Of a stretch of DNA of 42,092 bases, positions 2,552 to 42,092 are shown piece after piece. The translations under genes and the position numbers were made by a program. The notes under the pieces are model-generated. The model made no database searches and was not told where the DNA came from. It saw nothing but the letters and a program-made list of their open reading frames with translations. The stretch is taken from assembly GCA_015064135.1 (NCBI GenBank), contig SVSU01000004.1, positions 1 through 42,092 on the forward strand. The letters run 5' to 3'. The first letter of the stretch is position 1. Every line of letters starts with the position of its first letter. Origin of the DNA: Oscillospiraceae bacterium (GTDB lineage: Bacteria > Bacillota > Clostridia > Oscillospirales > CAG-272).

Positions 2552-3184
2552 TTATGCTTTCACGCTGTCACGGATGAACACGATTCCGCCCTTCGCGCCG
2601 GGTACTGCGCCCTTGATCGCGATGAGGTTCTTTTCTGTGTCAACCTTAACAACTTCGAGATTAAGAACAGTAACCTGTTCGTTACCGTACTGACCTGCCA
2701 TCTTCTTGTTCTTGTAGATTCTGGAAGGTGTGGAGTTCTGACCGAGAGAGCCGCCGTGACGGTGAACAGGACCGCCGCCGTGTGTCATTCTCTTGATCTT
2801 GAAGTTCCATCTCTTAACAACGCCGGAGTAACCGTGACCCTTTGTAATGCCTGTAATGTCGACCTTGTCGCCAGAAGCGAAGGTATCGGCAGCAATTACA
2901 TCGCCTACGTTCAGTGCGGAGATGTCGTCAAGACGGAATTCCTTCAGGTGACGCTTTGCAGAAACGCCTGCCTTCTTGAAGTGACCTGCAGCGGGCTTGT
3001 TAACAAGCTTTTCGCGCATATCCTCGAAAGCGAGCTGAACTGCTTCGTAACCGTCAGTTTCAACTGTCTTCTTCTGTGTGATAGCACAGGGACCGGCTTC
3101 AATTACCGTTACAGGGATAACTGTGCCGTTTTCCATGAAAATCTGGGTCATACCCAGCTTCTTTCCGATGATGCCTTTTTTCAT
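2552..3184 (-). CDS. rplC: 50S ribosomal protein L3
   Basis: A 210-residue L3 starting [16 protein letters not shown], the conserved N-terminus, and containing the [27 protein letters not shown] loop region in two conserved blocks. L3 is one of the first proteins to bind 23S rRNA and its loop approaches the peptidyl-transferase centre. The ribosome binding site is AGGAGGAAG just before the ATG. Upstream is an unusually long gap of 228 nt to rpsJ that can fold. Confidence 0.97.
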
Positions 3185-3412
3185 CGTTTTTCTTCCTCCT
3201 ATAAAAGGTTATTGGTTGATGCTGTGGGTTTTCCGGGAGCCGCCCGGAGCATCAACATGACCTTGACCGTCATCAAGCCGGGACTCTGCAGCAGGAAAAC
3301 TGCTCATCCTTCACAGAGGGGTTGTCCCCTGCGCGCTCTGCACGGTTGGTAATGGCTTTGTGTGGGTTTGCAGGACTCGCCTGCATGGGTTTTGGGTTGA
3401 TCCCGAGCCGAC
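3185..3412 (-). promoter_or_regulatory. Structured intercistronic region between rpsJ and rplC
   Basis: In most bacteria rpsJ and rplC are separated by tens of bases; here the gap is 228 nt and GC-rich. A 9-bp perfect stem pairs 3215-3223 (GTTGATGCT) with 3248-3256 (AGCATCAAC) and encloses a second perfect stem CCGGG/CCCGG (3233-3237 with 3243-3247). Further upstream in the transcript are GCAGG/CCTGC and AGGGG/CCCCT hairpins. The fold lies about 15-30 nt before the rplC ribosome binding site. I infer a cis-acting RNA (attenuator, autoregulatory binding site or processing site); no U-run follows the main stem, so it is not an obvious terminator. Confidence 0.5.
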
Positions 3413-3724
3413 TTACAGCTTCAGGTCGATATCAACACCGGCGGGAAGTTCAACAGACATGAGAGCTTCAACAACCTTCTGGGAAGGCTTGATGATCTCA
3501 ATGAGTCTCTTGTGAGTTCTCTGTTCGAACTGTTCGCGGCTATCCTTGTACTTGTGGACTGCACGAAGGATGGTGATGATTTCCTTTTCTGTGGGGAGCG
3601 GAACAGGACCGGAAACTTCAGCGCCGTTTCTCTTTGCGATCTCAACGATCTTTTCGGCCGCCTGGTCTACCAGTGTGTGTTCGTAGCTCTTGAGTCTGAC
3701 TCTGATCTTCTCGTTTACTGCCAT
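3413..3724 (-). CDS. rpsJ: 30S ribosomal protein S10
   Basis: A 103-residue S10 (NusE), first gene of the operon. The sequence [20 protein letters not shown], the GPVPLPTEK segment and the [16 protein letters not shown] block are diagnostic. S10 is in the 30S head and also partners NusB in transcription antitermination. A strong GAGGAGG ribosome binding site lies upstream of the ATG, after the long leader. Confidence 0.98.
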
Positions 3725-3968
3725 GGTGTGCCTCCTCTATGGATTATATAATAAATGGAAGTCGAGGCGATAAACACGCGGCCGGGTGTGTCTTTTCTCG
3801 GCTTAACATAAACCGAATCGGACAACGCTAAGGAGAAAAGTGTTGACTGACCCGGCGGAGCATATTCATACTCGCCCGATTTACTCGGACATACTCAGCG
3901 GAAATTCCCTGTTTTTGCATGACAGTATTCGCAAAAACAGCAACCTCCCGCATCAACGCACATCAAGT
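3725..3968 (-). promoter_or_regulatory. S10 operon 5' leader RNA, folded
   Basis: Between the predicted start of transcription (about 3968) and rpsJ lies a leader of about 245 nt. It holds a perfect 10-bp hairpin (3909-3918 with 3931-3940, CTGTTTTTGC/GCAAAAACAG) and a long two-part stem: GCCGGGT 3781-3787 with ACCCGGC 3850-3856, and CTTTTCTC 3792-3799 with GAGAAAAG 3833-3840. Ribosomal-protein operons are often autoregulated through such leaders (L4 for S10 operons). Which protein binds here is not shown by the sequence. Confidence 0.6.
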
Positions 3969-3974
3969 GAGACC

Positions 3975-4003
3975 ATTTTATCATATTTTTTGCTCAAAAT
4001 CAA
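3975..4003 (-). promoter_or_regulatory. Promoter of the S10 operon
   Basis: Reading the minus strand, TTGATT (-35) and TAAAAT (-10) are separated by 17 bp. This is a good match to the housekeeping sigma-70/SigA consensus and the only one seen upstream of rpsJ. The spacer is A-rich. Confidence 0.75.
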
Positions 4004-4482
4004 GGGTTTTAACCATATTCCGCCTTTCACAAGTAGGAGAAATTTAACACAAACCACGTTGTGTTTTTGTGCAGTTTGTGCAGATGTGGCTTTTTAGGGG
4101 GAGAAAGAGGGGGCTTTAAGCAATGTAGTAGTGTTGCAGACGTATTGACTTCAAGTCGTTTGTTGGCTTTCGCATAATCTGTACTTTAAATTACAGGGAT
4201 ATAGCGAAAGTGGGGCTTTTGTTTATGTATCGTTACTGTTTATTACAGCGATAAGGCGAACAAACAGCGTTAATCGAACTTTTTCTTTTGTCCACGCAAA
4301 AGAAAAAGGTTGGAAGCGCTGTTCGTTCGCTATATCACTATAACCCACAGCAACGATTCAAAAACCAACCGCCTCACGTTCACCATACCCCTGCAACCCA
4401 CAGCACTGCCCCCCCTATCCAAACCAAAACTTAAAATAATCTCGACTTCATGTATAATATCCCCCCAAATCCCCATCCCCCA
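4004..4482. other. Intergenic region between two divergent units
   Basis: No convincing coding sequence. Besides the inverted repeat at 4198-4336, the stretch has G-runs near 4096-4120, C-runs near 4408 and 4460-4482, and two copies of AACCCACAGCA (about 4342 and 4394). The ORFs listed in the track here lack ribosome binding sites and family features. Confidence 0.6.
4198..4336. repeat. Nested inverted repeat, possible MITE-like or extragenic palindromic element
   Basis: Three nested arms share one centre: GATATAGCGAA 4198-4208 with TTCGCTATATC 4326-4336 (11 of 11); GCGAACAAACAGCG 4256-4269 with CGCTGTTCGTTCGC 4317-4330 (13 of 14); and CTTTTTCTTTTG 4279-4290 with CAAAAGAAAAAG 4297-4308 (12 of 12, six-base loop TCCACG). 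The outer two right arms overlap, so the arms are alternatives in part. There is no ORF inside. It may be a non-autonomous mobile remnant or a repeated palindrome; copy number cannot be judged from one window. Confidence 0.55.
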
Positions 4483-38466: not shown

Positions 38467-40725
38467 TTATCCCAAAAGCTCCGAGGCTCTGTGCACATCC
38501 GCATGACACATGGCAGCCATCTCTGTTACATGACGGCTGACCGTGTCTGTAATCTCGTCGTGATGCCGCATTATATCCTCGGCACAGCAGACGATCTCTC
38601 CTGACTCAAGGGTTCTGACGGAAAGAATATATGGCTGCTCCAGCCGCTTCATAATGGAGTCGATCTTCGGGTCATAGGACAATCCGATAACGGGAACCCG
38701 GGCGCATCCGCTGAAGATCAGCATATGAAGCCGCATTCCCACCACAAACCTTGCCTGACTGAGTATTCCCACAAGTTCAGGTGCCGTTTCGGGCTCCGCA
38801 ATGCACGCAAAATCCCTGCCCAGTCTCTCGTTGATCCGTTCCACTGTCCGTCGGCAGATCTCCTCATCGTTCTGAGGCTGCATGGGAATAAGGACGGGAC
38901 ATAAGCCGAACTTTTCTCCGATCTCGGCACAGGCTGCCGCTGTTTCCTCCACCAAACGCTCCTCGTCGATAAGCTGCGCCAGCTTTCCCTCGCACCGACG
39001 GAGAGACACCGCAAAGAAGGGAGTTTTCGCAGAGAGACCGCGCTTCTGCATTGCCTTCTCAAGCTTTTCGCCCGTGTATCCACCCGTGAGAAAAGCAGGG
39101 TCTGCCGTGACCTTCACCTTTTCTCCGTCAACACCGAGGGTAATCAGCTCATCCTTTGAGTCGGGATCACGCACCGTCACGCAATCAGCGCCGCCCACAA
39201 CCTCTGCCGTGATCCTGCGGTTCTTCTCATCCATAATGGGGCCGATACCGTTGGCATAAACGTAAACCTTCGTTCCCATTTTCTTCGCCAAACGGATAAT
39301 TCCTGCGTAATACCACAGGCTGCGCTTGCTTGTGCCGTCCTGGAACAGGGTTCCGCCTCCCGATATAAGCAGTTTTGCCCCCTTCAGTGCGCGAATGATA
39401 CCGATAATATCTGTTCTTCCGATGCAGTTGATCCCTTTTTTCATCCGATCTCTTTTCGGCTTTCGGGTCAGTGCCGAAATTTTCACCCCCGGGATCTCCT
39501 CCGAAAGGCTCTGGGCAATGGTATCAAGGAGGGTCTCATCCCCCATATTCCCGAAGCCGTAGTAACCGCTGATTACCACATCGGCCTCTCCCCGGAAGGG
39601 TATGGGAGAGCGCAGTGTTCGCTCATACATGGACACATAGTCTCTCGCCATTCGCTCCGCCGTATAGTATTTCATTACCACCGAACGGCACCATTCTCCC
39701 CTCGCCCTGCGCTGTTCTTTGGACTCACCAAACAAGGCGGTAATATCCCGAAAAAGGGCACCCTCATCCGCCTGAGGATATCCTCGGCAGCAGAAATTTG
39801 TATCCATGGCAGGAGCGATAACGCTTTCGTCAAAAATCCCGAGAGCCCCCTGGTTTCCTGCAATAATCACAGGCTTGGATGCCGCCATTGCTTCAAGGGC
39901 AGAACGGGAAACTCCCACAAAAACATCGGCACACGACATGATTTTGTTGATATCGGAACGATTGTCCGTCATCGTCACCAACCGTCTGCCTGCTTTTTTG
40001 TTCACTTCCTCCGCCATGCGGTTTATCTTATCAAATTCCGTTCCGCCTCCGCCGATGATGATATCGAGATCGGGAATGGCTTCATCCAGCTTTTCGGCGA
40101 TGTTTACAATGCGGTAGGCAGGGTCGGCACGGTCCTCGTCCAGTCGGCTGACATATACCAGTCGGTTTCGCTCATCCCCCGTGGGCAGGTGAAACTCCGC
40201 GAGAAAATCATCGTAAGGTACATCTGCGGAATATTTCACCGTATCGATACCGTTGATGGTAACGCTTATTTTATCCGCAGGATATCCGTATTCCTGCACC
40301 AGGTATTCCCCGATGTCGTCGCTTACCGCCATGGAACGCTCTCCCCAGCAGGACAACCTTCTCCAAAGGGGGTTGATGGAAAAATTCAGGTGAGCCGTGG
40401 TGACAAAACGGAACCGATGCTTTTTCCAAAGAATGCCGCATATGAAAGCCGGAATCCTTGCATGGGCATGAACAAGATCGTAATTCCCCTCTGTAATCAG
40501 TTTCTCCAACCCTTTTAAGGAAGAAGCGACCGCATGAGGTGTCTTTCGGTCAAGGGGCAGCTTCACATGATCGATCCCCTCGGAAACGAGCATATCCGCA
40601 TGCACACCCCCATTTGACACAAGGGTAACGGTATGCCCCATTTTCCCAAGTTCGCGGCACAGCTCCAGAATATGGGTCTCAGCACCGCCGATATCCATCT
40701 TCATTGTCACCATCAGAATCTTCAT
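38467..40725 (-). CDS. csaB: GT4 glycosyltransferase - CsaB polysaccharide pyruvyl transferase fusion
   Basis: A 752-residue fusion. Residues 1 to about 375 are a GT4-type glycosyltransferase (MVTMKMDIGGAETHILELC, YVSRLDEDR, and VFVGVSRSALEAMAASKPVI, the nucleotide-sugar site). Residues about 380-752 are the CsaB domain (VVISGYYGFGNMGDETLLD and VGMRLHMLIFSGCARVPVIG), which transfers pyruvate from PEP to wall-polysaccharide sugars. Pyruvylated polysaccharide is the receptor of SLH domains, so this enzyme probably supports the SLH protein at 13558. Usually the activities are separate proteins. The start is ATG 40725 with GAAAGG 9 nt upstream; the upstream in-frame start in the track would overlap the small gene. 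Confidence 0.9.
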   Translation of the reverse strand: MKILMVTMKMDIGGAETHILELCRELGKMGHTVTLVSNGGVHADMLVSEGIDHVKLPLDRKTPHAVASSLKGLEKLITEGNYDLVHAHARIPAFICGILWKKHRFRFVTTAHLNFSINPLWRRLSCWGERSMAVSDDIGEYLVQEYGYPADKISVTINGIDTVKYSADVPYDDFLAEFHLPTGDERNRLVYVSRLDEDRADPAYRIVNIAEKLDEAIPDLDIIIGGGGTEFDKINRMAEEVNKKAGRRLVTMTDNRSDINKIMSCADVFVGVSRSALEAMAASKPVIIAGNQGALGIFDESVIAPAMDTNFCCRGYPQADEGALFRDITALFGESKEQRRARGEWCRSVVMKYYTAERMARDYVSMYERTLRSPIPFRGEADVVISGYYGFGNMGDETLLDTIAQSLSEEIPGVKISALTRKPKRDRMKKGINCIGRTDIIGIIRALKGAKLLISGGGTLFQDGTSKRSLWYYAGIIRLAKKMGTKVYVYANGIGPIMDEKNRRITAEVVGGADCVTVRDPDSKDELITLGVDGEKVKVTADPAFLTGGYTGEKLEKAMQKRGLSAKTPFFAVSLRRCEGKLAQLIDEERLVEETAAACAEIGEKFGLCPVLIPMQPQNDEEICRRTVERINERLGRDFACIAEPETAPELVGILSQARFVVGMRLHMLIFSGCARVPVIGLSYDPKIDSIMKRLEQPYILSVRTLESGEIVCCAEDIMRHHDEITDTVSRHVTEMAAMCHADVHRASELLG

Positions 40726-40742: not shown

Positions 40743-40922
40743 TCAATCTTTCTTATCCCTGTTTTTTCTCTTTTTCACCAAAATAACGATTCCGACCGCA
40801 ACAGCAACTGCCACGATCCCCACACCGACATACCACAGCGGATCGGGGCCTGCCACAAATATGGCTGTGGGGCCGTCCGCACCTCCGATAATTCCCACAG
40901 ATGCATCATTTACTTCAAACAT
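40743..40922 (-). CDS. Small membrane protein with an OadB-type GGADGPTAIF motif
   Basis: A 59-residue ORF not in the supplied track, found by translating the gap. The soluble N-terminal half is MFEVNDASVGIIGGADGPTA followed by IFVAGPDP; the second half is one membrane helix (YVGVGIVAVAVAVGIVILV) and a basic tail KKRKNRDKKD. SVGIIGGADGPTAIF is the signature of the membrane beta subunit of sodium-pumping decarboxylases (OadB/MmdB), here without the other helices. A GAGAGG ribosome site lies 6 nt before the ATG, 2 nt after the ygiQ stop and 17 nt before the csaB start. Its role is unknown. Confidence 0.75.
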   Translation of the reverse strand: MFEVNDASVGIIGGADGPTAIFVAGPDPLWYVGVGIVAVAVAVGIVILVKKRKNRDKKD

Positions 40923-40924
40923 AC

Positions 40925-42092
40925 TTAACCTCTCTTTTTGCCGCGCGGCTTTCCCGTGAATTTGGCTTTTTGATGGGGTACGGAATTTACATTGCTTTTC
41001 TTACCCCGACCGGGCGGCTCTCTTCTTCCGTCGCCTCGTCTGCCATCCGTTTTTACGGGTTTATTTCCCTCTTTTCGTTTAACATCCTTATCCGATCTCT
41101 CTTTTGATGGCGGTCTGACCCCCGAGAGCAGCTCTTTCAGCATTTCCTTGCCGCGGTCGGAGCAATAATTCATAGCCTCATAGATCATACGGCGGTTTTC
41201 GGGTTTTCTCCATTGCAGAAGGGCGCGCTGAAGCTGTTTTTCTCTGTAATCCGTGGCAGTATAGATTTTTTTCCCCGAAAACGGATCTATTCCCGTATAG
41301 AACATAACGGTGGAAGCGGTTCCCGGGGTGGGATAGAAATCCTGAACCTGCTCGGGCGCCAAACCGATCTTTTTGGTATACAGCGCCAACTCTGCCGCGT
41401 CGTCCATGGTGCTTCCCGGGTGGCTGGACATGAGATAGGGCACCAGAAACTGATTCTTACCCATCTGCTCATTGAGCTTCATGTATTTTTCTCTGAATCT
41501 ATCATACACCGCCACATCGGGCTTTCCCATATGAGACAGCACATTGGATGCACAGTGCTCAGGCGCCACTTTAAGCTGACCGCTGACGTGATCCTTCACC
41601 AATTTGCGGAAGAACGCATCGCTTCGGTCGGCAAGAAGATAATCAAACCGCACACCCGAACGAATGAACACCTTTTTAACCCCTTTAACCTGCTCAATAG
41701 CGGTAAGGAGTCTGATATACTCGCTGTGATCCGCGATCAGATTCTTACACGGACGGGGTACAAGACACCTTTTGTCCTGACAAACGCCATGCTCAAGCTG
41801 TTTGTCACAAGCGGCTCGGCGGAAGTTTGCGGTGGGTCCCCCCACATCGTGAATATACCCCTTAAAATCGGGCATAGCGGCGATCAATTCCGCTTCTTTC
41901 ACGCAGGATTCAATGCTTCTTGAGGTAACGGCGCGTCCCTGATGGAATGCCAGTGCACAGAAATTACAACCGCCGAAGCACCCTCTGTTGTGCGTAATGG
42001 AAAACTTCACCTCCGCAATGGCAGGGACACCGCCCATTTCCTCATACATAGGGTGATATGTGCGCATAAAGGGCAGGCGGTACACCTCATCC
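40925..42092 (-). CDS. YgiQ family radical SAM protein, C-terminal part
   Basis: The last 388 residues of a YgiQ-type radical SAM protein; the start lies beyond the right edge (the track's first Met at 42085 is a GTG inside the gene). The iron-sulfur motif CFGGCNFC (CX3CX2C) in [22 protein letters not shown], the DVGGPTANF and [15 protein letters not shown] blocks and the [17 protein letters not shown] segment are family-typical. The last 60 residues are a basic, probably disordered tail ([16 protein letters not shown]). The reaction catalysed is not known. A two-base gap leads to the miniprotein gene, so they are likely co-transcribed. Confidence 0.92.

Follow-up and report, generated by a model that had tools for sequence, protein, structure and literature searches.

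Why should a 59-residue membrane protein of an Oscillospiraceae bacterium carry the sodium-binding hairpin of a decarboxylase pump, and does that hairpin also occur on its own in other proteins? The question is raised by a small gene that lies between ygiQ and csaB in a stretch of 42,092 nucleotides, referred to below as the window. We find that unrelated proteins of Clostridia very probably share a segment of about 16-30 residues that is conserved at the protein level, is nearly identical to hairpin H1 of the pump subunit OadB, and is nearly always membrane-adjacent and predicted to face outward.

A miniprotein gene at the ygiQ-csaB junction

The gene occupies positions 40743..40922 of the minus strand (ATG at 40922, TGA at 40743-40745). 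A Shine-Dalgarno sequence, GAGAGG (40929..40934, minus strand), stands 6 nt ahead of the ATG within the last codons of ygiQ; the start is 2 nt past the ygiQ stop, and about 17 nt separate the stop from the likely csaB ATG. The original prediction of this open reading frame, with its coordinates, its GAGAGG site and its tight spacing, was thus confirmed, the strand being minus. Translation of the frame gives MFEVNDASVGIIGGADGPTAIFVAGPDPLWYVGVGIVAVAVAVGIVILVKKRKNRDKKD. The motif SVGIIGGADGPTAIFVAG, which resembles hairpin H1 of OadB (PMC7274780), makes up residues 8-25 (40848..40901, minus strand). As had been noticed at the outset, a single transmembrane (TM) helix is present (residues 29-50; 40773..40838, minus strand; pLDDT of about 90 in the model), as is a basic tail, KKRKNRDKK plus the last residue (40746..40772, minus strand). 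Sequence and a positive-inside count predict the tail to be cytoplasmic and the motif to be outside. No inverted or direct repeats were found around the gene.

Upstream lies the gene of the YgiQ radical SAM protein (40925..42085, minus strand; TIGR03904, E=1.4e-129), truncated at the end of the window. The downstream neighbor (38467..40725, minus strand; likely ATG at 40725) encodes a glycosyltransferase-CsaB fusion in which TIGR03609 matches residues 390-709 (E=4e-70). In this single protein of 752-759 aa the glycosyltransferase domain is N-terminal and CsaB comes after it; matches to the protein are found behind ygiQ in most of the genus. A ygiQ locus was located in 22 genomes of the genus, this one included, and csaB matches come next in nearly all of them. 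The miniprotein is absent from the junction in the 21 other genomes wherever it is readable (only partly so in L267, a short locus) and is present there in this species only; a few other genomes have a different small gene in between. Related miniproteins of the genus (L010, L011) are encoded elsewhere. Across the host families of the motif described below, no neighbor recurs except common transporter genes and regulators. The suggestion that ygiQ or csaB might be a recurring neighbor was therefore not borne out: csaB follows ygiQ in nearly all of the 21 other genomes, without the miniprotein wherever the junction is readable, and we reject either gene as a functional partner. Because the miniprotein junction occurs only here and no neighbor recurs across host families, we regard the neighbors of the miniprotein as its setting and not as a sign of its function.

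The motif is hairpin H1 of OadB

GGADGPTAIF had been taken for the N-terminal signature of OadB/MmdB. The resemblance is real and the position was mistaken: GIIGGADGPTAIF belongs to a mid-protein hairpin, H1, which holds Asp203 of the Na+ site. H1 is a helical hairpin of OadB with its tip around Asp203, a residue that helps bind Na+; H1 and H2 enter the membrane from opposite sides, and the Na+ site also requires Ser382 and Asn412 of H2 (PMC7274780). The Pfam model OAD_beta matches residues 6-25 of the miniprotein below threshold (E=2e-5; 24.2 bits against a cut-off of 31.6), which corresponds to 20 of the 349 model positions (112-131). TIGR01109 also matches (E=7e-5), and the solved OadB of Salmonella (6iva) is matched at residues 194-226. 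The tip of H1 is present with the equivalent of Asp203. A full multi-helix OadB, with H2 (Ser382, Asn412) and a score above the Pfam cut-off, is not what the 59 residues make up, and outside the motif region they show no similarity to OadB.

What the miniprotein shares with the OadB/MmdB beta subunits (PF03977, TIGR01109) is the H1 hairpin IGIIGGADGPTAIF with its flanks, about 30-35 residues on the same predicted outer-face side. Unlike these subunits, it lacks H2, all other helices and the second half of the Na+ site, is 59 instead of about 400 aa long, and is encoded outside a decarboxylase operon. An intact OadB is found elsewhere in the same genome (contig G000:C26), beside a gene for a probable carboxyltransferase subunit. 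Decarboxylase pumps also have small single-TM subunits, OadG (gamma) and MmdE, which the miniprotein resembles in being small and single-pass. To our knowledge these subunits do not carry the OadB motif. The miniprotein matched no small-subunit family of the OadG/MmdE kind at E up to 10, and its gene, on contig C51, is outside the decarboxylase cluster of C26.

In a comparison of profiles, 30-35 residues of the miniproteins and of a family of two-TM proteins align with H1 of OadB (hhalign probability 98%), the similarity of the two-TM family reaching 35 residues. In one of these proteins, L171, the TIGR01109 match extends across about 57 residues, which suggests a fragment of OadB as a possible ancestor of the two-TM family. 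The exact 8-residue core occurs in many independent open frames, and a reversed control pattern gave 0 matches in every genome. The recurrence of the motif is far above chance.

Many unrelated proteins of Clostridia carry the motif

About 70 distinct non-OadB proteins of Clostridia carry the motif (68 after de-duplication, including a few orthologues of PgsA, plus a handful found later). They were told apart from OadB by inspecting the open frame in which each motif match lies. We sort the carriers by domain match and architecture into about 18 unrelated host families, a grouping of our own rather than a formal clustering. The original prediction of an OadB motif in stand-alone single-pass peptides holds well beyond one strain: besides the window miniprotein, one-TM miniproteins were found in the same genus (L010, L011) and elsewhere (L038, L056, L207, L163, and others such as L135). 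The motif is not limited to miniproteins, and in this respect the prediction was too narrow, as it also occupies outer-face, mostly membrane-adjacent positions in many unrelated proteins. Two-TM proteins of 83-97 aa make up one group (L171, L194, L197, L208, L214, L220, L041, L210; L287 is similar). Lipoproteins comprise small ones (L054, L122, L123), rhodanese lipoproteins (L151, L154, L162, L217, L292, and L291 with a variant motif) and others (L202, L215, L288). The motif is also carried by XRE-HTH membrane proteins (L012, L064, L124, L129, L132, L168), HAAS proteins (L120, L126) and their look-alikes (L156, L200, L204), ABC permease-like proteins (L040, L127, L161), a TPM protein (L034), GtrA (L160), PgsA (L165 and its relatives among L221-L232), secreted or surface proteins (L009, L029, L111) and a cytosolic-looking family (L118 at 807-2345, L119 at 2660-4192, L209, L213).

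Pfam matches among the hosts are to HAAS, DUF6449, TPM, GtrA, CDP-OH_P_transf and, weakly, ABC2_membrane. OAD_beta matches the motif in 8 of 10 diverse hosts, always under its curated cut-off, and in L161 and L126 the match includes some upstream sequence. No family in Pfam, NCBIfam, PHROGs or PADLOC describes the stand-alone motif. Among papers outside subscription journals, none contains the string GGADGPT, of a kind that papers rarely print, and other literature searches surfaced only the OadB structure paper. As a pattern, the stand-alone motif is probably undescribed. In L013/L159 and L212 the frame with the motif has no clear TM helix and an arginine-rich tail, and may be a wrong downstream frame or a decayed gene.

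Position at the membrane and predicted structure

A hydrophobic segment lies no more than 30 residues from the motif in 60 hosts, and in 51 of these the motif is on the less positive side; the nine exceptions are five lipoproteins, which are exported anyway, and four two-TM proteins with mixed charges. Where a downstream TM helix is present, it mostly begins 5-11 residues past the motif. Judging from sequence, nearly all hosts have the motif beside the membrane and predicted to face outward, and the cytosolic-looking family is the exception. The window miniprotein fits the definition of such exoplasmic H1-motif proteins, namely an IGGADGPT core, outside a full OadB, that is predicted to be exposed on the outer side and to lie no more than about 12 residues from a TM helix or a lipid anchor. 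The OadB helix that comes after H1 leads into KLLTTKKER, a stretch placed in the cytoplasm by the positive-inside rule, so that H1 would enter from outside; given the outer-face position of the motif, this topology is predicted to be kept in the stand-alone hairpins. Both AlphaFold2 models give a beta hairpin at the motif, with GGADGPT as a turn beside the TM helix (pLDDT of about 52-68), and not a re-entrant helix. A Foldseek search of the PDB with the miniprotein model returned nothing significant.

Conservation and selection

Every residue of IGGADGPT is fixed across 42 stand-alone copies while synonymous third positions vary to the point that all synonymous codons occur, an invariance that is in part a matter of ascertainment, since the searches were seeded with the motif. 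Orthologous families found through the rest of the protein, namely PgsA and the rhodanese lipoproteins, offer a less biased view. In PgsA of one bacterial family, the motif is intact in L221, L225, L226, L228, L229 and L232; other members have decayed versions (IIGSADSPT, VIGGVDGPT, IIGDADGPT) or none in the same hypervariable outer loop. Among rhodanese lipoproteins, one orthologue carries the variant IISGADGPT, and the motif is missing from another. These decayed and absent copies indicate that the constraint on the motif, though strong, is not absolute, and that the motif is dispensable in some orthologues. PgsA, an enzyme of phospholipid synthesis, holds the motif in the outer loop between TM5 and TM6 in several genera, and close relatives have decayed copies.

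The original prediction had proposed purifying selection as a check, and such selection is apparent. Nei-Gojobori proportions computed per family give a pN/pS of 0.16-0.28 for the motif, values that are rough because synonymous sites are near saturation. The motif is below the rest of the protein in the miniprotein trio (0.27 against 0.56), the two-TM proteins (0.19 against 0.56), the XRE proteins (0.16 against 0.45) and the HAAS proteins (0.28 against 0.76), only slightly so in the rhodanese lipoproteins (0.18 against 0.26), and no more constrained than the enzyme in PgsA (0.28 against 0.26). Conservation acts on the protein and not on the DNA.

Distribution across genomes

The exact motif occurs in 171 of 243 Clostridia genomes and OadB in 179; none of the 64 genomes without OadB has the motif, as established by comparing the two lists by eye. 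At least 19 OadB-bearing Clostridia genomes have a stand-alone copy (Fisher p=0.005, with genomes that are not phylogenetically independent). As a control, 47 OadB-bearing genomes of other phyla, chosen through their OadB loci, were searched with the miniprotein profile. They yielded no clear stand-alone copy, and almost all matches fell in frames of OadB length; a shorter frame of 263 residues (L084) is an OadB cut by the contig end, and a weak match in G609 lies in a 75-residue frame with a stop. Stand-alone copies thus look characteristic of Clostridia, as judged from a small control. The DNA of the motif is slightly closer to the OadB of its own genome than to that of others (3.5 against 4.5 mismatches, p=0.0002), a difference that codon bias may explain.

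The phage records examined held no stand-alone copy; their matches were all OadB genes, on unannotated or unverified contigs. PHROGs gave no match, nor did PADLOC for the miniprotein. A phage origin was rejected on these grounds, the one carrier on a viral contig (L118) belonging to the cytosolic-looking family.

Discussion

Many unrelated proteins appear to reuse, almost unchanged, a hairpin from the catalytic site of a well-studied ion pump. This pattern is well supported; a docking mechanism is not. Even so, the near-identity to OadB, the shared topology and the co-occurrence with OadB lead us to favor, tentatively, the reading of the segment as an outer-face docking module that can be transferred between proteins, perhaps for the decarboxylase pump. 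A TM helix, a lipid anchor or the host protein would hold the hairpin on the outside of the membrane, to be recognized there by a partner acting in trans. That partner may be the pump itself or the usual binder of its H1 hairpin; these call for the fewest assumptions, as every genome in which the motif turned up also has OadB. The miniprotein of this species would represent the module alone, expressed from a ygiQ-mini-csaB gene string with a role tied to neither neighbor. The spread over about 18 unrelated hosts, the fixed residues under free codon use, the low pN/pS of the motif in most small families, its predicted outer-face position a short way from the TM helix and its retention in the otherwise hypervariable TM5-TM6 loop of PgsA also count for docking. 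Against it stand the absence of any partner or common gene neighbor among our results, the one cytosolic-looking family, the decayed or absent motifs of PgsA and rhodanese orthologues and the low-confidence beta hairpin of the models; moreover, the co-occurrence could mean that OadB is the source of the motif rather than its target, as the slightly closer motif DNA might hint, although codon bias alone could produce that.

A wider claim, that Clostridia with sodium-pumping decarboxylases use the Na+-site hairpin as a general outer-face recognition tag, grafted into miniproteins, regulators, lipoproteins, transporters and PgsA, whose carriers are read or gathered at the membrane by a common partner, would amount to a new bacterial system of short linear motifs, and we consider it doubtful. 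If the motif is such a tag, one short sequence would link biotin-dependent Na+ pumping, and hence energy metabolism, to regulators, lipid synthesis and surface proteins, and would provide a handle on dozens of uncharacterized small membrane proteins in gut and environmental Clostridia. For annotation, a low-threshold OAD_beta match in such proteins denotes the motif and not a pump.

The main rival to docking, which we judge somewhat unlikely, is a self-contained structural module: a beta or re-entrant hairpin on the outer membrane face that works without a partner, perhaps binds Na+ or lipid head groups, and would serve the XRE and HAAS membrane regulators as a sensor. The predicted hairpin with its GGADGPT turn beside the TM helix is what such a module would look like in both models, the motif-TM spacing is short and nearly constant, the same residues make a Na+ site in OadB (PMC7274780), and the cytosolic-looking family fits better here than under docking. 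However, the miniproteins are without the H2 residues Ser382 and Asn412 of that site, the confidence of the models is low, the Foldseek search was empty, and a module of this kind would by itself leave the near-identity to OadB outside the fold unexplained.

A tag for processing or sorting, recognized next to the membrane by a dedicated sortase-, protease- or rhomboid-like enzyme, is unlikely. The miniproteins share with C-terminal sorting signals (LPXTG, GlyGly-CTERM) the order of motif, TM helix and basic tail and the multitude of unrelated carriers, and they weakly match anchor models: LPXTG_anchor (TIGR01167) reaches 16.3 v 15.9 bits over residues 29-54, which are the TM helix and tail past the motif, and other anchor matches are below curated cut-offs. 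Unlike these signals, the motif has no LPXTG-like, sortase or rhombosortase core and no recurring enzyme neighbor, and it also occurs at the N-terminus, in mid-protein loops of the polytopic PgsA and GtrA and directly after lipoboxes, which would be odd positions.

Quite unlikely, too, is a decoy role in which surface copies of the hairpin titrate an outside agent, such as a bacteriocin or a phage protein, that binds the pump. Display on the outer face by many unrelated carriers in pump-bearing genomes only would suit a decoy, but no such agent is known, hosts such as the XRE regulators are unlikely to be abundant, the phage records examined hold no stand-alone copy, and PADLOC has no match to the miniprotein.

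Short segments common to unrelated proteins are known from Rickettsia palindromic elements and bacterial amyloid signaling motifs. A neutral or selfish in-frame element that moves between genes like the former would account for the scattered hosts, the differences in presence at the ygiQ-csaB junction and in PgsA, and the positions in loops and linkers. It is nevertheless very unlikely, given that conservation is at the level of protein with no conserved palindromic DNA, that no repeats surround the miniprotein gene and that the motif is kept across long-diverged orthologues; with codons varying freely, a mobile element at the DNA level was rejected as the basis of conservation. In contrast to the amyloid signaling motifs, no paired NLR-effector genes were seen. 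That the miniprotein is a translated scrap of a degraded oadB, as the original prediction had allowed, is extremely improbable and largely refuted: identity with H1 and the extended similarity of the two-TM proteins speak for it, but oadB is intact elsewhere, synonymous change is near saturation under purifying selection, hosts are many and unrelated, and the rest of the miniprotein is unlike OadB.

In the XRE-HTH and HAAS-like membrane regulators, the motif sits between two TM helices, and some of the HAAS-like genes are beside PadR-like genes. Members of the cytosolic-looking family are 340-510 aa long, have the motif near the C-terminus and, in the three members scanned, gave no other Pfam match; one (L118) is on a viral contig and one is beside an O-acetyl-ADP-ribose deacetylase gene.
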